NCBI RefSeq assembly: GCF_900087015.1
Contig: NZ_FLKP01000002.1
Location: forward strand, 1,302,001-1,366,000
Length of the DNA stretch: 64,000 nucleotides
Direction: 5' to 3'
Origin: Christensenella timonensis
GTDB taxonomy: Bacteria; Bacillota; Clostridia; Christensenellales; Christensenellaceae
How positions within the stretch are numbered: the first letter of the stretch is position 1; every line of letters starts with the position of its first letter. Shown piece after piece: positions 3,310-28,468 of this stretch. A program made the position numbers and the translations under genes. A model generated the notes under the pieces. The model did not search any database. It saw nothing but the letters and a program-made list of their open reading frames with translations, and was not told the origin of the DNA.

Positions 3310-3590
3310 AAGAAAACCAACGATTCGGAGGAGTAACCGGGAAAACCGCTTTTGAGAGAGCGATGGATGGTGTGATCATCGCAGCACAGGATTTTCGGCG
3401 AATGGACTGATGAGGGCAGGGAGAAAGGCCATGGGCCAAGTAATACCTGACGGAATCCCACCGTTATGAGGGACAGCAGTTGATAGACTGTGATGAGTGG
3501 GCGCTCATGCGTCAATTTAGGTGGCACCGCAGAAGTGTTATAAGCTTTTGTCCTAGGAAAACTGGGATAAAAGCTTTTTTTATCCCTGGA
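3310..3590 (+). promoter_or_regulatory. tryptophan T-box leader with terminator
   Basis: tRNA-sensing leader RNA that permits read-through when tRNA-Trp is uncharged. Visible parts are the AGTA element near 3336, the GATGGTGTGA bulge motif at about 3366-3375, the specifier loop GAATGGAC with codon TGG (Trp) at 3403-3405, and the T-box AGGTGGCACCGC at 3519-3530. Within it, UGGC would pair with the acceptor end of tRNA-Trp, whose discriminator base in bacteria is G, so specifier and acceptor agree. The terminator is an inverted repeat around 3542-3576 followed by a T run to about 3582. The downstream gene encodes a TrpB-like enzyme, which independently supports Trp specificity. Confidence 0.92.
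3542..3582 (+). terminator. T-box-controlled intrinsic terminator
   Basis: AAGCTTTTGTCCTAG pairs with CTGGGATAAAAGCTT around a short A-rich loop and is followed by seven T residues. It directly follows the T-box sequence, with which part of its 5' side must compete. Confidence 0.88.
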
Positions 3591-5181: not shown

Positions 5182-6396
5182 ATGGATTACAGAACCTATT
5201 TGAAAAATTACCCGGATGAAAATGGAAAATTTGGCGAATATGGCGGGGCGATTTTGCCGCCGGAGCTTGTGCCCGCGTTTGAGGAAATAACAGAGGCATA
5301 TGAAACGATATGCAATTCCGCGCAGTTTATAAGCGAGCTTAGGCGTATCCGCCGTGAGTTCCAGGGACGTCCTACGCCGGTGTACCATTGCGAACGCCTG
5401 TCGAGGATGCTGGGCAGGGTGCAGATATACTTGAAGCGCGAGGACTTAAACCATACGGGCGCGCACAAGCTGAATCATTGCATGGGCGAGGGCCTGCTTG
5501 CCAAATATATGGGCAAGAAAAAGCTGATCGCGGAAACGGGCGCGGGGCAGCACGGCGTTGCCCTCGCTACGGCGGCGGCTTTCTTCGGCCTTGAATGTGA
5601 AATCCATATGGGAGAGGTCGATATCGCTAAACAGGCGCCCAACGTGACGCGCATGAAGATATTGGGCGCGAAGGTCGTGCCGGTATCGCGCGGGGCGGCG
5701 ACCTTGAAGGAAGCGGTGGATTCGGCCTTTGAAGCATATGCGCGGGATTATAAGGACGCGATCTATTGCATCGGCAGTGCGGTCGGGCCGCACCCGTTCC
5801 CTATGATGGTACGCGATTTCCAGATGGTCGTCGGACAGGAAGCGCGCGAGCAGTTCCTGGAAATGACGGGCAACCTGCCGGACGCGATCTGCGCGTGCGT
5901 GGGCGGCGGCAGTAATTCGCTGGGGTTGTTCACACCTTTCCTCGATGATCCGGTGGAAATCTATGGCGTGGAACCGATGGGACGGGGCAAAGAAGTGGGC
6001 GAGCACGCAGCGACCATCACGTATGGCAAAAAAGGGACGCTGCATGGTTTTGAAAGCTACCTTTTGCAGGACGAAGCGGGCGAGGCGGCGCCGGTCTATT
6101 CCGTGGCCAGCGGTCTCGATTACCCGTCGGTAGGGCCGGAGCACGCATTTTTACATGACCTTGGGCGCGTGCATTATGTAACGGCGACAGACGACGAAAC
6201 GATGGAGGCGTTCTTCAAGCTTTCGCGCTATGAAGGGATCATTCCCGCGATCGAAAGCGCACACGCCATTGCCTACGCAATGAAGTACGCGAAGGAAAAC
6301 AAGAAGGGCTCGATTCTCGTGAATTGCAGCGGCAGGGGCGATAAGGACATCGACTATGTCGTCGAAAAATATGGGTACGGCGAACAATATAAATAA
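5182..6396 (+). CDS. trpB: tryptophan synthase beta chain, TrpB1 type
   Basis: Beta-subunit fold that makes tryptophan from indole and serine with PLP. The N-terminus GKFGEYGG, the [15 protein letters not shown] block with PLP lysine K96, catalytic E118 in [15 protein letters not shown] and CVGGGSN follow classical TrpB closely, including the COMM-domain region that contacts TrpA. Start ATG 5182 has GGAGAG seven bases upstream; an in-frame ATG at 5167 has its purine stretch too close. No trpA accompanies it. Length (404 residues) is normal. Following a TrpB2 gene, it may use free or scavenged indole, or an alpha subunit coded elsewhere. Confidence 0.93.
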
Positions 6397-22064: not shown

Positions 22065-23267
22065 TTAGATTTCGTCGGAATAGTTATCGAAGTAGCCCTG
22101 TACGAATACGACGGGAGTGCCCTTATCGCCGCTGCCCGAAGTCAGGTCGCACAGCGAACCGATCAGGTCTGTTAGCTGCCGGGGGGTCGTGCCCTGCGAG
22201 GCCATCGACCCCTTCAGGTCGGCATCCTTTTTTTGGATGTGTGCGGTGATCGCTTTTTGCAGCTCCGCGCCGGAAAGCCCGGCGAAGTCGTTATCCGCTA
22301 AGTATTTGAGCTTCAATTCGTTGGGAACGCCTTCGAGCCCGGAGGTATAGCCGGGGGAGACGACCGGGTCTGCAAGCTCCCAGATTTTTCCGACCGGGTC
22401 TTTGAACGCGCCGTCGCCATAGACCATGACTTCCACGGTTTTGCCCGTCGCATCCTTCATTTTTTGCTGTACGCTGGCGACGAATTGATCGCAGTCGCGC
22501 GGGAACAGTTTTACCGTCGATTCTGTGGATTTGTTGGAACCCAGCAGGCCGTAATCGGGATTGTAGCCGCTCCCGTTTACCGGCTTGTTTAAGATGTCGC
22601 AGAGCGTATAGACTTTCTGTGCGCCTGCGTTAAGTAATTTACGCTTGCTGCGCTCGCGCGTATGTATATCGCAGCACAGCACGTTTTTGGTATAATCGAG
22701 GATCACGGTCGGGTTGTTCGCAAATACGAATTCGACTTCCGCGCCTTCTTCGTTGATCACAGAGGCGTAATATTCGACATAATCCATGCCTGTGAAGGGA
22801 TGGAGGTTCACGCCGAACAGCTCCCGGTATTTTTTGAGGTCGAGCACGTCCGTCCACGGGTTCACGCCTTTTTCATCCAGTTGGTCTAAAGAAATCAGGT
22901 GATTGCCTACTTCATCAGCCGGATAGGAGAGCATCATGACGATCTTTTTCGCGCCGCGCGCAATACCGCGCAGGCAGATTGCGAAACGGTTGCGGCTGGT
23001 GATGGGGAAAATAAGGCCGACCGTTTCATCGCCAAATTTTTCCCTGACATCGGCGGCGATATCGTCAACAGAGGCGTAATTCCCCTGCGCACGCGCTACC
23101 ACAGCTTCCGTTACCGCGATGACGTCACGGTCGTGTATCGCAAAACCGCCGTCAAAAGCGTTTGCAGCTTCCAGGATGGAGTCGGCCACCATCTGGGCCA
23201 GGTCGTCGCCCTGGCGGATGATCGGGGTACGGATCCCCCGGGAAATGGTTCCTACTAATCTAGACAT
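22065..23267 (-). CDS. CofE-like protein (coenzyme F420-0:L-glutamate ligase family)
   Basis: 400 residues related to the F420-0:gamma-glutamyl ligase family. Recognisable segments are RGIRTPIIRQGDDL at the start, HDRDVIAVTEAVVARAQG, and LIFPITSRNRFAICLRGIARGAKK. In methanogens and actinobacteria CofE adds glutamate to F420-0. Bacteria of the type suggested here are not known to make F420 and no cof or fbi gene lies nearby, so another amide-ligase substrate is likely. ATG 23267 follows GGTGGG; the frame continues upstream for 63 codons but without family resemblance or a ribosome binding site. Divergent from the hexokinase-family gene. Confidence 0.75.
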   Translation of the reverse strand: MSRLVGTISRGIRTPIIRQGDDLAQMVADSILEAANAFDGGFAIHDRDVIAVTEAVVARAQGNYASVDDIAADVREKFGDETVGLIFPITSRNRFAICLRGIARGAKKIVMMLSYPADEVGNHLISLDQLDEKGVNPWTDVLDLKKYRELFGVNLHPFTGMDYVEYYASVINEEGAEVEFVFANNPTVILDYTKNVLCCDIHTRERSKRKLLNAGAQKVYTLCDILNKPVNGSGYNPDYGLLGSNKSTESTVKLFPRDCDQFVASVQQKMKDATGKTVEVMVYGDGAFKDPVGKIWELADPVVSPGYTSGLEGVPNELKLKYLADNDFAGLSGAELQKAITAHIQKKDADLKGSMASQGTTPRQLTDLIGSLCDLTSGSGDKGTPVVFVQGYFDNYSDEI

Positions 23268-23456
23268 AAAAAATCCCACCTTTGGTACACATCGCAAAAG
23301 ATATGCTTTTTTGGAATAAACCTTAAGTATTATAGCAGAAAAAGGAAAAAGGCTCAACCCATGTCGGAAAAAAGGAAAACGGGGCAGATGACGGCTATGC
23401 AAGCATGTGTTTTTTTTGTATAATAAAGATGGCCGAATTTTGATAAAGGAGTACAT

Positions 23457-24710
23457 GTGTTGAAAGCTAAAGAATTTTTACAAAATCACCGGATGGGATT
23501 TGAGACCATCGTACTGGAAGACGAGATCGACCAATATATCGACGAGATGAAAAAAGGGTTATGCGGGCAGCCGAGTTCGCTGCTGATGCTGCCTTCCTAT
23601 ATTGCTTTAAAGGACGACGTACAGCGGAAGAAGCCTGTATTGTGCGTGGATGCGGGGGGAACGAACCTGCGCATTACGGTGGCGCAATTTGATGCGGAGG
23701 GGCATTTTTGTACGGGGGAAGTGTTCCGCTATATTATGCCCGGCGTGGAGAGGGAGCTTAGTGCACAGGAATTCTTTGATACGCTGGCGGGACTGATTTT
23801 CCCGCTCACAAGCATCACAAAGGATATCGTGATTTCGTTTGCCTACCGGGCAAGGACGCTCCCCAACATCGACAGCGAGATCGTGGACATCACAAAGGAA
23901 GTCAAGGTGAGGGGAGCGGAAGGGAAACTGCTGGGAAAAGAGATATGCGCAAGCCTGGCCGCCCTCGGTGCGCAGGATTGCAGCGTGATCGTTTTAAACG
24001 ATTCGGTCGCTACGGCGCTGGCCGGAAAAGCGGAAAAATTAGTGGAAGGATACGGTTCTTTCACTGGAACGATCCTTGGTACGGGCAGCAACAGCTGCTA
24101 TATGGAATCCATCGGGAATATCAAAAAAATGAACGGACACGACGCGGAGGGCGTGACAGTCGTCAATGCGGAAGCGGGAAGCTATAATAAGGTTCCGCGC
24201 AGCGATATCGACATCGCCTTTGACAACAGCCTGCAAAACCCCGGCGTGGGCGTATTTGAAAAGATGACGAGCGGCGGTTATCTGGGGAGCCTGTGCGGAT
24301 TTACCCTGCGCGTTGCCAGTGCGGAGGGTGTATTTCAAAAGTCTTTTGACGCACAGCTTGATACTATGCAGGTAAATGAATTCCTAACAGACCGTGCGGG
24401 TTTCATTGCGGAATATTTTACGGATGAAAGCGACGCGGGAGAAGCGTACGAGATATTGCTCAACCTGACAAAACGGGCGGGCAGGCTGCTTGCGCTGCAG
24501 ATGGCGGCGATGGCAGTAAAAGCATGCAAAGCCAACCACCGCGTTTGCATGACGATCGAGGGCACGACATATGAAAAAATGTTTGGTTTAAAGCATGAGG
24601 CGTTGATCACGCTGCTGCCGTTCTTGCAGGGCAGGGAGATCGAGGCGGATGTGATCAGTGTGGATATGGCTGTATTAAAAGGCTGTGCGATCGCCGGGTT
24701 ATCCAGATAA
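23457..24710 (+). CDS. hexokinase family protein (eukaryotic-type fold signature)
   Basis: Probable ATP-dependent hexose kinase. LMLPSYI before DAGGTNLR (D65-R72) and LNDSVATALAG resemble the conserved blocks of the eukaryotic hexokinase family, not the ROK or Glk glucokinases. LGTGSNSCY matches the sugar-site loop, and EGTTYEK near the C-terminus is the adenosine-binding region. Length is 417 residues. The start is ambiguous: AAAGGAG lies five bases before GTG 23457 and eight before TTG 23460. A -10 TATAAT at 23419-23424 has only a weak -35. The next gene downstream is hydE, separated by an attenuator-like leader. The sugar substrate is unknown. Confidence 0.85.
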   Translation: MLKAKEFLQNHRMGFETIVLEDEIDQYIDEMKKGLCGQPSSLLMLPSYIALKDDVQRKKPVLCVDAGGTNLRITVAQFDAEGHFCTGEVFRYIMPGVERELSAQEFFDTLAGLIFPLTSITKDIVISFAYRARTLPNIDSEIVDITKEVKVRGAEGKLLGKEICASLAALGAQDCSVIVLNDSVATALAGKAEKLVEGYGSFTGTILGTGSNSCYMESIGNIKKMNGHDAEGVTVVNAEAGSYNKVPRSDIDIAFDNSLQNPGVGVFEKMTSGGYLGSLCGFTLRVASAEGVFQKSFDAQLDTMQVNEFLTDRAGFIAEYFTDESDAGEAYEILLNLTKRAGRLLALQMAAMAVKACKANHRVCMTIEGTTYEKMFGLKHEALITLLPFLQGREIEADVISVDMAVLKGCAIAGLSR

Positions 24711-24761
24711 AATCAGGATTACCGGGCGCGCAAAGCGGGTATCTATATTATTAGGAAAGAC

Positions 24762-24853
24762 TTCTGACCGCAAGGAATGATTCTGAACGGAAGGACGGCT
24801 GATAAGACAATGGTTTTGTGCTGTTCTTTTGCGTTCAAAAGGACAGCATTTTT
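24762..24853 (+). promoter_or_regulatory. attenuator-like leader of the hydE-hydG-hydF operon
   Basis: Two imperfect 15-base direct repeats, TTCTGACCGCAAGGA (24762-24776) and TTCTGAACGGAAGGA (24781-24795), precede an intrinsic terminator at 24819-24853 that lies only 15 bases before the hydE start. A terminator here makes sense only if read-through is regulated or if it closes the hexokinase transcript. I do not recognise a known riboswitch class. Confidence 0.5.
24819..24853 (+). terminator. intrinsic terminator before hydE
   Basis: TGCTGTTCTTTTG pairs with CAAAAGGACAGCA (one G-U pair) around the four-base loop CGTT, followed by five T residues. The hydE ribosome binding site follows at once. 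Confidence 0.85.
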
Positions 24854-24867
24854 ATTGGGGAGAAAAT

Positions 24868-25860
24868 ATGGCAAAATACGAATTTGGAAAATATCGTCTG
24901 GATACGGAGAAGCCGGACGCGACGGCCATTGCCGCAATATTGGCGGATGGGTCAACTGACGATATATTATTTGCAGCAGCGAACGCAGTGAAAGCAAGGG
25001 AGTATGGAAACCTTGTTTTTGTACGCGGGATCATTGAGTTTTCAAACTATTGCAGGTGCAGCTGCGCGTATTGCGGCCTTAATGCCGGTATGAAAATGAC
25101 GCGTTACCGGATGACGCCGGACGAACTGGTGGAGGCGGCGGTGGAAACGGCCAGGGTATACCGCACGGTCATCCTGCAAAGCGGCGAGGACCTTTATTAC
25201 ACGGCGGATATGCTGGCGGATATCGTGGCGCGTATCAAAGCGCGCGCGAATTGTGCGGTGACGCTTTCCATCGGGGAACGGTCGCTGGAAGAATATAAGA
25301 AAATCCGTGAAGCGGGAGGAGACCGTTTTTTGTTGAAGCATGAAACGGCGGATGCGGCCCTTTACCAGTCGCTGCACGGCGTGCTGCTTGATAGCAGGCT
25401 GCAGGCGCAGCGCATGTTAAAGGCGCTGGGGTTTGAACTGGGGGGCGGCTTTATGGTAGGGCTTCCGGGGCAAACGGACATGACGCTGGCAAACGACCTG
25501 TTGACGCTCAGGAGGGAAGGGGTGGTGATGGCCGGGATCGGGCCGTTTATCGCCCATCCGGACACCTCGATCGGGCAGGCGGCGGATGGGGACGCACACA
25601 AGACGCTCAAAGTGCTGGCGCTGGCGCGGCTTTTACTGCCGCGGTGCCATTTGCCGTCGACGACGGCGCTCAATGTAAAAGGCGGGATGAAGGATGCGCT
25701 TTTGTGCGGTGCGAACGTCATCATGCAAAAGGCGACGCCTTATGAATACAGGAAGCTTTATGATATCTATCCGGGCAGGGACGCAAAGGACGTGCCGCTT
25801 AAGGAGCAGTTTGAGGAACTTGAGCAAAGGCTTGCGGGGCTTGGGCTCCGCGCGGAATGA
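24868..25860 (+). CDS. hydE: [FeFe]-hydrogenase maturase HydE, radical SAM
   Basis: Radical SAM enzyme of H-cluster assembly, acting with HydG to build the diiron subcluster. The SAM-cluster motif is C62-x3-C66-x2-C69 (CRCSCAYCGL). EFSNYC ahead of it, LQSGED, SIGERS, LLKHETAD and GGGFMVGLPGQT are all typical of HydE. Start ATG 24868 has GGGGAGA upstream. hydG follows after 12 bases. Length is 330 residues, slightly shorter than the structurally characterised homologues of about 350. Confidence 0.95.
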   Translation: MAKYEFGKYRLDTEKPDATAIAAILADGSTDDILFAAANAVKAREYGNLVFVRGIIEFSNYCRCSCAYCGLNAGMKMTRYRMTPDELVEAAVETARVYRTVILQSGEDLYYTADMLADIVARIKARANCAVTLSIGERSLEEYKKIREAGGDRFLLKHETADAALYQSLHGVLLDSRLQAQRMLKALGFELGGGFMVGLPGQTDMTLANDLLTLRREGVVMAGIGPFIAHPDTSIGQAADGDAHKTLKVLALARLLLPRCHLPSTTALNVKGGMKDALLCGANVIMQKATPYEYRKLYDIYPGRDAKDVPLKEQFEELEQRLAGLGLRAE

Positions 25861-25872
25861 GGGGAGAGTAAA

Positions 25873-27279
25873 ATGGCTTACGACAGAAAAGGTATGACGG
25901 CAGCGGAGTTTATGGATCAGGGAGAGATCGAGCGCACGCTTGCCGCAGCGAAAGAAAAGGCACAGGACAAAGGGGAAGTTGCACGTATCATTGCAAAGGC
26001 GCGGGAATTCAAGGGACTGACACACGAGGAAGCGTCCGTTTTGAGCTTTGTTACGGACAAAGAGCTGTTAGAGGAGATGTTTGCCGTTGCAATGGAGATC
26101 AAAAAGCACATCTACGGCAACCGTATCGTGATGTTTGCGCCGCTTTATTTGTCGGATTACTGCGTGAATGAATGCCGGTATTGCGGATATCACCATTCGT
26201 CCTGCATGGAGCGTAAAAAGCTGACGCAGGAAGAAATCGTACAGGAAGTAAAAGCGCTGGAAAAGATGGGTCACAAACGGCTGGCCCTGGAAACGGGCGA
26301 GGACCCGGTCAACAATACGATGGAATATTTGCTGGAAAGCATCAAGACCATTTATTCCATCCATTTTGATAACGGCGCCATCCGCCGTGTGAACGTCAAC
26401 ATCGCGGCAACGACGGTGGAAAACTATAAAAAGCTTAAGGACGCGGGCATCGGCACGTATATCCTGTTCCAGGAAACGTACCACAAACCGACGTACGAAT
26501 ACCAGCATCCCAAGGGGCCGAAGAGCAACTATGAATACCATACGACGGCGCACGACCGCGCGATGGAGGCAGGGATCGACGACGTGGGGCTGGGCGTTTT
26601 ATACGGGCTTTACGACTGGCACTACGACCTTGTGGGACAGATCATGCATGCGGAGCACCTAGAAGCGGTATTCGGCGTAGGGCCGCACACGCTGTCCATG
26701 CTGCGTATCCGCGATGCGGGCGATGTGAAGAAAACGGACTATGAGCACGCGGTCAGCGACGATGATTTTAAGAAGATCGTGGCCATCCTGCGCATGACCG
26801 TGCCGTATACTGGCATGATCCTTTCCACACGCGAGGGTGGAAAGTTCAGGGACAGCGTGATTAAGCTGGGGATTTCGCAGGTGAGCGCAGGCAGTGCGAC
26901 GGGTGTAGGCGGCTACACAATGGGAACGCAGCAGCCGCAGTTTGAGATCGAAGACCACCGCAGCCCCATTGAAATGACAAAGGAGCTGATCCGCGACGGT
27001 TATATCCCCAGCTTCTGCACGGCATGCTACCGCCAGGGCAGGACGGGCGACCGCTTTATGCGCCTTGCAAAGACCGGGCAGATCAGCAATATCTGCCAGC
27101 CGAACGCGCTCATTACGCTGAAGGAATACGCGACGGATTATGGCGACGAGGAGTTCAAGCAGATGGCAAACGAGTTGATCGAGCAGCAGCTCAAGCAGAT
27201 ACCAAACGATACGGTGCGTGAAAAGGCGCGTGAGTATATCGCAAAGATCGAAGCAGGCGAACGCGATTTTCGATTCTAA
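25873..27279 (+). CDS. hydG: [FeFe]-hydrogenase maturase HydG, radical SAM tyrosine lyase
   Basis: Splits tyrosine to p-cresol and dehydroglycine and from this makes the CO and CN ligands of the H-cluster. The N-terminal SAM cluster uses C97, C101 and C104 (CVNECRYCGY). The C-terminal auxiliary cluster uses C382, C385 and C408 (CTAC ... ICQPN), which distinguishes HydG from ThiH. Length of 468 residues is normal. GGGGAG lies upstream of ATG. Middle gene of hydE-hydG-hydF. Confidence 0.97.
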   Translation: MAYDRKGMTAAEFMDQGEIERTLAAAKEKAQDKGEVARIIAKAREFKGLTHEEASVLSFVTDKELLEEMFAVAMEIKKHIYGNRIVMFAPLYLSDYCVNECRYCGYHHSSCMERKKLTQEEIVQEVKALEKMGHKRLALETGEDPVNNTMEYLLESIKTIYSIHFDNGAIRRVNVNIAATTVENYKKLKDAGIGTYILFQETYHKPTYEYQHPKGPKSNYEYHTTAHDRAMEAGIDDVGLGVLYGLYDWHYDLVGQIMHAEHLEAVFGVGPHTLSMLRIRDAGDVKKTDYEHAVSDDDFKKIVAILRMTVPYTGMILSTREGGKFRDSVIKLGISQVSAGSATGVGGYTMGTQQPQFEIEDHRSPIEMTKELIRDGYIPSFCTACYRQGRTGDRFMRLAKTGQISNICQPNALITLKEYATDYGDEEFKQMANELIEQQLKQIPNDTVREKAREYIAKIEAGERDFRF

Positions 27280-27289
27280 GGAGAAAAAG

Positions 27290-28468
27290 ATGTCTGGATT
27301 CAATGAAACGCCGCGCGCCAACCGGCTGCATATCGCGTTTTTCGGCAAGACGAACGCGGGAAAATCAAGCGTGATCAACGCGATCACCGGGCAGGATATC
27401 GCCTTGGTATCGAACGTCGCTGGTACGACGACAGACCCGGTCTACAAGGCGATGGAGCTTTTGCCTGTGGGGCCTGTCGTGTTCATTGACACGGCGGGGC
27501 TTGACGACCGGACAGAGCTGGGGCGGGCGCGCATCAAAAAAACGGATGAAGTGACCGATAAAACGGATGTCGCAGTATTTGTGATCCGCTGCGGGGACAC
27601 AGACCTTGGCGTAGAACGCGAATATATGCGGAAGCTGGAAGAAAAAAAGACCCCGGTACTTGTGGCTTACAATATGTTTGAAGAAAACGGGGCGCAGGCA
27701 GCGGCGCCGGTCGGCGAAAAGTCGGTCGTTGTCAATGCAAAGACGGGCGAAGGGATCGACCGATTGAAACAGCTGATCATCGACAATGCACAGGAATCGG
27801 AGCAGCCGACGATCACCGGGGACTTGGCAGGCGAAGGGGACGTGGTCATATTGGTCATGCCGCAGGATATCCAGGCGCCCAAAGGCAGGCTGATTTTACC
27901 GCAGGTGCAGGTTACGCGGGATTTGCTGGACAACGGATGCAGGGTGGTTTCGATCAAGACGGAGGATCTTGAATCCATGTTGGGAGAGCTTAAACATCCG
28001 CCCAAGCTGGTGATCACGGATTCGCAGGTGTTCGGATATGTAAACGAACATTTGGACAAGGAGATCCCGCTGACTTCCTTTTCCATGCTGATGGCAAAAA
28101 GCAAGGGGGATATCGGGGAATTTGTCAAAGGAGCGCGGGCGATCGCACGTTTAAAGCCAGGCGACCGTGTGTTGATCGCGGAGTCGTGTACGCACCATGC
28201 CCAGAAAGGTGATATCGCACGTGAGAAGCTGCCAAAATGGCTCAATGATTATGCAGGCGGAGGGCTGGTGATCGAAAACACGGCCGGGCATGGCTTTTTG
28301 GATGATCTCTCCAAATATAAGCTGGTCGTCCACTGCGGCGGATGTATGGTCAACCGCAAAAATATGCTCTCCAGGATCGAGCAGGCAAAAAAAGCAGGAG
28401 TCCCGATTACAAATTTTGGCGTGGCTATCGCTTTTTTAAATTCGATGCTGGATCGCGTGATTTGGTAA
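27290..28468 (+). CDS. hydF: [FeFe]-hydrogenase maturation GTPase HydF
   Basis: Scaffold on which the diiron cluster is completed and handed to apo-HydA. An N-terminal GTPase domain has the P-loop GKTNAGKSS (19-27) and DTAGLDD. The C-terminal cluster domain carries C300-x-H302 and H348-C349-x2-C352, the expected [4Fe-4S] ligands. ATG 27290 has AAGGAG directly upstream, ten bases after the hydG stop. No hydrogenase structural gene (hydA) is in the window, so it must lie elsewhere if the system works. Confidence 0.96.
   Translation: MSGFNETPRANRLHIAFFGKTNAGKSSVINAITGQDIALVSNVAGTTTDPVYKAMELLPVGPVVFIDTAGLDDRTELGRARIKKTDEVTDKTDVAVFVIRCGDTDLGVEREYMRKLEEKKTPVLVAYNMFEENGAQAAAPVGEKSVVVNAKTGEGIDRLKQLIIDNAQESEQPTITGDLAGEGDVVILVMPQDIQAPKGRLILPQVQVTRDLLDNGCRVVSIKTEDLESMLGELKHPPKLVITDSQVFGYVNEHLDKEIPLTSFSMLMAKSKGDIGEFVKGARAIARLKPGDRVLIAESCTHHAQKGDIAREKLPKWLNDYAGGGLVIENTAGHGFLDDLSKYKLVVHCGGCMVNRKNMLSRIEQAKKAGVPITNFGVAIAFLNSMLDRVIW

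Follow-up and report, generated by a model that had tools for sequence, protein, structure and literature searches.

In RNA antiterminators of the LicT/SacY type, a hairpin overlaps the 5' arm of a terminator, and binding to the hairpin prevents termination. The ANTAR target RNA is composed of two tandem hairpins whose hexaloops carry A1 and G4, a kink-turn has a three-nucleotide bulge beside tandem G.A pairs, and glycine riboswitches are found in tandem copies. The window analysed here, a stretch of 64,000 nucleotides from Christensenella timonensis, contains a leader in front of the hydrogenase maturation genes hydE, hydG and hydF. This leader very probably belongs to a conserved family of cis-regulatory RNAs, as yet without a name, that serves the H-cluster maturation genes and switches them by the mechanism described below.

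A preliminary description of the locus was aware of no riboswitch or attenuator described for such genes, and this agrees with our searches: the loci scanned match no family in Rfam 15, and there is no such element among the literature matches listed. At the gathering cut-offs of Rfam 15, the only match in the window was an unrelated T-box leader at 3311-3558, which barely exceeds its gathering score (93.9 vs 93), and nothing was found at the hydE leader. At E <= 10, the leader produced nine matches far below the cut-offs (PyrR, for example, at 16.2 bits vs 54), and five further hyd loci had no match in Rfam 15. RNA-level control of H-cluster assembly is not described in the best literature matches listed, and the word 'hydrogenase' is absent from the main text of PMC2864571, PMC6429828, PMC8632094, PMC11109978, PMC7266159 and PMC2965389. 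It is possible that the element is listed without a name in the supplements of a paper.

The leader in front of hydE

The features of the locus are as follows.

24746..24751, + strand: possible -10 element TATTAT, read from the sequence, which would put the transcription start near 24758
24762..24776, + strand: repeat 1, the 5' strand of the hairpin, UCU GA CCGC AA GGA (TTCTGACCGCAAGGA)
24781..24795, + strand: repeat 2, the 3' strand of the hairpin, UCU GA ACGG AA GGA (TTCTGAACGGAAGGA)
24763..24795, + strand: conserved regulatory hairpin, the proposed sensor domain (pair counts, covariance models R1-R3)
24788..24799, + strand: putative switching strand, either the 3' side of the hairpin or an antiterminator strand pairing with 24820-24831 (folding, duplex test)
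24818..24849, + strand: intrinsic terminator stem-loop of 14 pairs, -17.4 kcal/mol
from 24850, + strand: U-rich tract TTTTATTGGG after the terminator stem, the tail of the terminator
24857..24862, + strand: Shine-Dalgarno-like GGGGAG ahead of hydE, read from the sequence
24868..25860, + strand: hydE with its ATG at 24868 (TIGR03956, 281.7 bits vs a cut-off of 254.6)
25873..27279, + strand: hydG (TIGR03955, 716.8 bits vs 312.15)
27290..28468, + strand: hydF (TIGR03918, 534.9 bits vs 325.55)

The preliminary description had named a hydE-hydG-hydF operon preceded by a strong intrinsic terminator and by two 15-base imperfect repeats with a spacing of 19. All three genes are indeed above the NCBIfam equivalog cut-offs, the terminator has the stem and U-rich tail listed above, and both repeats were located, identical at 13 of 15 positions and spaced 19 from start to start. 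The proposal was that these parts form an attenuator whose read-through depends on an RNA element or on a repeat-binding protein. The comparative analysis supports an attenuator with a conserved RNA element, with one correction. The repeats are not two separate sites: each supplies one strand of the same pseudo-symmetric hairpin, the 3' strand of which would double as the antiterminator.

The gene upstream of the leader, on the same strand and ending at 24710, is a hexokinase (Pfam). It adjoins a gene on the minus strand, 22068-23270, for an F420-0:gamma-glutamyl ligase domain protein (PF01996) that scores under the NCBIfam CofE cut-offs.

When folded from 24758, the leader is more stable than all of its 200 dinucleotide shuffles (z -3.36). 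The 157 nt that begin at 24711 stand out less, with a z of -2.09 and 6/200 shuffles as good.

Structure and distribution of the hairpin

The covariance analysis of leaders in relatives, which the preliminary description had called for, was carried out, and the central helix covaries. As judged from this comparison of sequences, the hairpin is a conserved pseudo-two-fold RNA structure. It has the form YCU-GA-helix-AA-GGR-loop-YCU-GA-helix'-RA-GGR, or in short CUGA-helix-RARG-loop-CUGA-helix'-RARG, and is at times present in tandem. The eight sequences of the family are built of a UCU/GGA pairing, a purine internal loop, a central helix CCRC/RYGR, a second purine loop and a GGA/UCU pairing. The R-Y pair of the central helix is G-C in four of the eight and A-U in the other four, and one central pair of the window's copy is C.A. 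The loop between the repeats is of the GNRA type in six of these sequences and closed by an A-U pair in the other two. Among all four-base loops, 17/42 are GNRA; the internal loops carry conserved purines and are symmetric two-by-two in the consensus. Two local hairpins or kissing loops would use the same bases, but the GNRA-type and A-U closed loops favour one hairpin.

In the alignment of 68 sequences, 166 cells change on both sides of a pair and still pair, compared with 50.3 in shuffles, none of 500 of which reached this count (alignment A5 was fitted to the structure, and several of the sequences are close relatives). Pairing registers slid along the same sequences gave at most 53 such cells. 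The MAFFT alignment of 21 sequences had 44 double-change cells vs 11.7 in shuffles; this alignment (A4) consists of 21 of the 28 rows of A3, 7 rows came from a descriptor that demands a paired central helix, and the 7 rows of A3 with three-pair helices were left out because MAFFT misaligned them. Two of the five covariation measures showed no excess on the 68 sequences, namely how many pairs show a double change (6 vs 5.6 in shuffles) and how many further pair types occur (22 vs 24.0), and the same two were also not above shuffles for the eight- and 21-sequence alignments.

A pattern without any pairing requirement, CT[GA]A-n-[AG]A[AG]G...CTGA-n-[AG]A[AG]G, drawn up after earlier matches had been seen, matched 28 times in 109 loci and not once in the reversed sequences. 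The centre was fully paired (G-U allowed) in 22 of these 28 matches, whereas the calculated expectation for random centres is about 2% for four bases and about 5% for three. Some loci with the pattern are close relatives, so the pairing events are fewer than these counts.

Within the genus, a repeat block of about 37 bases before hydE is kept in all six genomes searched (G000-G005) and the noncoding flanks drift. The same block is located before hydG in 2 of 12 other genomes of the family that were searched. The hairpin and the terminator are kept together in eight genomes, in two of which hydG comes first. A scan for the strict form of the pattern in a collection of 84,980 species, from which records near the window may be left out, returned five contigs, all from Christensenellaceae.

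Three covariance models were built, from eight (R1), 21 (R2) and 68 (R3) sequences. Over 396 genomes of the order, R1 found the eight and two chance matches inside open frames of coding sequence (G245, G312). Over 398 genomes of the phylum, it found three new weak matches, all ahead of maturation genes and with different, largely complementary central helices. The hydG gene is present in 223/398 of these genomes at E <= 1e-60 (213 above the cut-off). In 80 hydG regions, searches with R1, the descriptor and then R2 detected the element in many. Several score-6 matches of the descriptor are probably due to chance, and its reversed control gave 2. R2 produced 37 matches at E <= 0.05, of which 27 had not been used in model building and 10 were training rows. 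All 37 are on the same strand, 18-336 nt upstream of a match to HydE, HydG or TM1266, a family of small, NikR-C/ACT-like proteins (TIGR03959, PF21699, PDB 2NZC) annotated as 'putative iron-only hydrogenase system regulator'. The context table left out 5/62 matches (E >= 2.5) and 9/29 matches (E >= 0.17).

With R3 at E <= 0.03 and strict filters, we found 104 copies in 86/398 phylum genomes. Of these, 89 are at hydE/G/F or TM1266, 7 precede importer genes and 5 are chance matches, with three (G638, G498, G611) not inspected. Seventy share the strand of a listed hydG and are at most 6 kb upstream of it, as placed by coordinates and in some cases seen also in the fetched loci. The other 34 include 17 at hyd genes or TM1266, the 7 before importers and the 5 inside coding sequence; two copies, one before TM1266 (G561) and one just behind it (G584), were placed by coordinates only. 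With a match in 86 genomes and hydG in 223, the element is common, but not universal, among hydG genomes. A laxer search of 40 genomes chosen as bearers gave 52 matches at E <= 0.3, one of the unlinked ones inside coding sequence. Besides G245 and G312, the matches inside open frames that count as chance are G754:C35, the sole match of G629, the second matches of G672, G547, G739 and G696, and those of G421, G443, G617, G521 and G757:C139. The window's genome has no copy besides that of hydE at E <= 0.5 with R3; R1 gave one further match, at E 1.8.

Tandem copies at hyd genes are mostly 45-60 nt apart, for example in L153, L128 and L159 and, in weaker form, in L162 and L152. One locus (L160, genome G762) has two complete copies, 5307-5352 and 5763-5809, each with its own terminator, one ahead of TM1266 and one ahead of hydG. 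In five genomes of one family (G432, G510, G544, G621, G645), the element precedes a gene for an ECF substrate-specific component (ECF-S) of 163-164 residues. A Liv-type ABC importer follows in four of them; in G432, nothing but fragments of an ATPase gene is seen after ECF-S. Three of the ECF-S proteins were scanned and matched PF12822 at 33, 30.9 and 29.6 bits (cut-off 30.7). The element also precedes ECF-S alone (G669 and, by eye at E 0.19, G416), TM1266 together with ECF-S (G596, G693) and, as tandem copies, an SsuA-type importer (G542). With importers among the targets, what is sensed is plausibly a substance that the cell takes up for H-cluster assembly or uses in it. The element is linked to a family of ECF-S-like membrane proteins in L250, L251, L252, L258, L260, L261, L267, L268 and L287, and the substrate of this family may be part of H-cluster metabolism. 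In G438, a weak copy (E 0.105) is located ahead of a second HydG-like gene; in L254, a second HydG-like radical SAM protein is encoded about 127 nt behind the start of the weak motif copy. Some loci (L270, L271, also L269) have a gene of 102-126 residues between hydG and hydE, and at E <= 0.05 neither Pfam nor NCBIfam gave a match for the protein of L271.

Proposed coupling of the hairpin to expression

Among 80 chosen copies, 59 have an accepted terminator downstream (65 were called and 6 set aside; tandem loci are usually represented by one copy). At least 12 others overlap the ribosome-binding site, the hairpin ending in the Shine-Dalgarno sequence and the start codon following within about 20 nt. 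The duplex of the switching strand with the 5' arm of the terminator is better than that with 95% of shuffled arms in 26/59 copies, compared with 9/59 for the 5' strand of the hairpin. The test in which terminator arms were swapped with those of other loci was weak, with 6/59 copies at <= 0.05 and 29/59 at <= 0.2. For the window's own copy, the switching-strand duplex beats 97% of the shuffled arms.

In the minimum-energy fold of 24758-24867, a 12-bp helix joins 24788-24799 to 24820-24831. For this RNA, the antiterminator is predicted at -33.0 kcal/mol vs -29.7 kcal/mol for the hairpin plus terminator, a difference of 3.3 kcal/mol. If the terminator is enforced, the folding program itself returns the proposed hairpin, and in a nascent RNA that extends to 24835, before the 3' arm of the terminator, the antiterminator is the best fold. 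However, the best fold of an RNA starting at 24711 (-41.4 kcal/mol) has the terminator together with a register-shifted pairing of the repeats. Hence, the balance between ON and OFF depends on the transcription start, which is unmapped, as the fold from 24711 favours the terminator and that from 24758 the antiterminator. TATAAT-like boxes upstream of 79 copies (34/79 vs 31% in shuffles) were not clearly above the background.

This anatomy suggests the following scheme. In the absence of a binder, the 3' strand of the hairpin would pair with the 5' arm of the terminator, forming an antiterminator, and the genes would be ON. A binder that holds the hairpin would take the 3' strand away, the terminator would form and hydEGF would be OFF. 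With a start near 24758, the default state would be ON and the bound hairpin OFF. Elsewhere in the phylum, it is the Shine-Dalgarno sequence that this 3' strand overlaps, and the control would have the same sign at the level of translation. Because the 3' strand can usually pair with a terminator arm or overlaps the ribosome-binding site, a formed hairpin would mean OFF in both designs.

Candidate binders and comparison with known systems

The first candidate for the binder of the hairpin is TM1266, an assignment that we make tentatively and less firmly than that of the switching scheme. In this reading, TM1266 would signal how much is present of a small molecule or metal that the H-cluster requires, and the occurrence of the element at importer genes would also be explained. 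In many cases TM1266 is the first to follow the element. It has a match in 20/20 motif-bearing genomes of one set, with 19 of the matches exceeding the cut-off (a 21st genome in this set, G006, is without the motif), and in 34/35 of a second count, where the sole bearer without it (G661) is an assembly of 130 contigs with 94% completeness. Among hydG-bearing genomes without an R3 match, TM1266 is present in 26/44, and 4 of the 18 without it have only sub-cut-off hydG matches. A laxer search of 34 of these 44 genomes recovered a credible copy in 5/21 with TM1266 (G416, G418, G427, G462, G757) and in 0/13 without it, which is a small difference. TM1266 co-occurs with hyd genes anyway, and its co-occurrence with the element may reflect common descent.

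TM1266 proteins have an invariant arginine in a GRMG motif and further conserved basic positions. Those from 13 loci without a match show no visible difference at the basic positions, and no residues were seen to distinguish motif-bearing loci from the others. The TM1266 gene of the window's genome is at G000:C2:805433-805660 (L205), far from the hyd operon, with no element ahead of it at E <= 10 (R3). None of the literature matches listed reports a regulatory target of TM1266, and to our knowledge RNA binding is not known for this family.

A close rival, which we consider nearly as likely though still doubtful, is that a small molecule or metal of H-cluster synthesis, such as an imported precursor, is bound by the hairpin directly, and that TM1266 is merely co-regulated. 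The element would then possibly represent a new riboswitch class, in which a two-fold hairpin directly senses an H-cluster building block or intermediate and controls the maturases, TM1266 and dedicated ECF/ABC uptake. The conserved purines of the internal loops, the tandem copies at hyd genes and the copies before importers agree with direct sensing, the latter comprising ECF-S in five genomes of one family (with the Liv-type importer next in four), ECF-S alone or TM1266 with ECF-S elsewhere, and the tandem before the SsuA-type importer. However, the element has few conserved positions, its pseudo-two-fold symmetry fits a dimeric protein, and it co-occurs with TM1266.

Two other readings are very improbable. 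The terminator might be the mere end of the hexokinase transcript, with the hydE promoter elsewhere, as the position of this gene upstream on the same strand would permit; but the element with its terminator also follows different upstream genes (L088, L089) and occurs where hydG or TM1266 is the leading gene, the roughly 15 nt from the U-tract to the ATG leave little room for a promoter, and the hairpin covaries as RNA. It is just as hard to credit that a transcription factor uses the repeats as its operator in the DNA, with the RNA fold incidental. Direct repeats spaced 18-19 bp do lie close to the presumed promoter, but a direct-repeat operator explains neither the complementary changes of the variable central bases, nor the 17/42 GNRA loops, nor the match of the 3' strand to terminator arms or a ribosome-binding site.

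The preferred reading, a switching hairpin with TM1266 as its candidate binder, would have several consequences. An RNA element shared across many families of the phylum would provide a regulator for H-cluster assembly and a testable role for TM1266, which is annotated as a regulator. Through the importers that bear the element, a substrate or precursor used in the maturation pathway might be identified, and the element itself could serve as a control part in hydrogenase production.

Compared with the protein-controlled attenuators LicT/SacY, PyrR and ANTAR, the element is similar in being a short hairpin, with two internal loops and a terminator as its competitor, that is possibly read by a dimeric protein. 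Its geometry is opposite to that of LicT/SacY: the 3' strand is complementary to the 5' arm of the terminator, so binding should favour termination, and the element does not belong to the LicT/SacY type. Nor is it an ANTAR target, as there is one hairpin with a central helix that covaries between the repeats, and the would-be G4 of the first loop is A in 4/8 family sequences. The features of PyrR are not present, and the symmetric two-by-two internal loops of the consensus differ from a kink-turn. The candidate binder also differs from those of the three attenuators, being a TM1266 family protein; this family shows a genetic association both with the hyd genes and with the element, almost all tested bearers encode it, and we infer that it binds RNA.

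The other comparison is with OFF-type riboswitches that terminate transcription. These differ from our element, which is one short pseudo-two-fold hairpin with neither a known ligand nor an Rfam 15 match in the loci scanned. As far as sequence and folding can tell, the leader nevertheless has the makeup of a riboswitch, a conserved sensor joined to an expression platform. It shares with the OFF-type riboswitches this conserved sensor, a predicted antiterminator and terminator that are mutually exclusive, a translational version in other species, tandem copies, and a set of targets that combines importer with biosynthesis genes.
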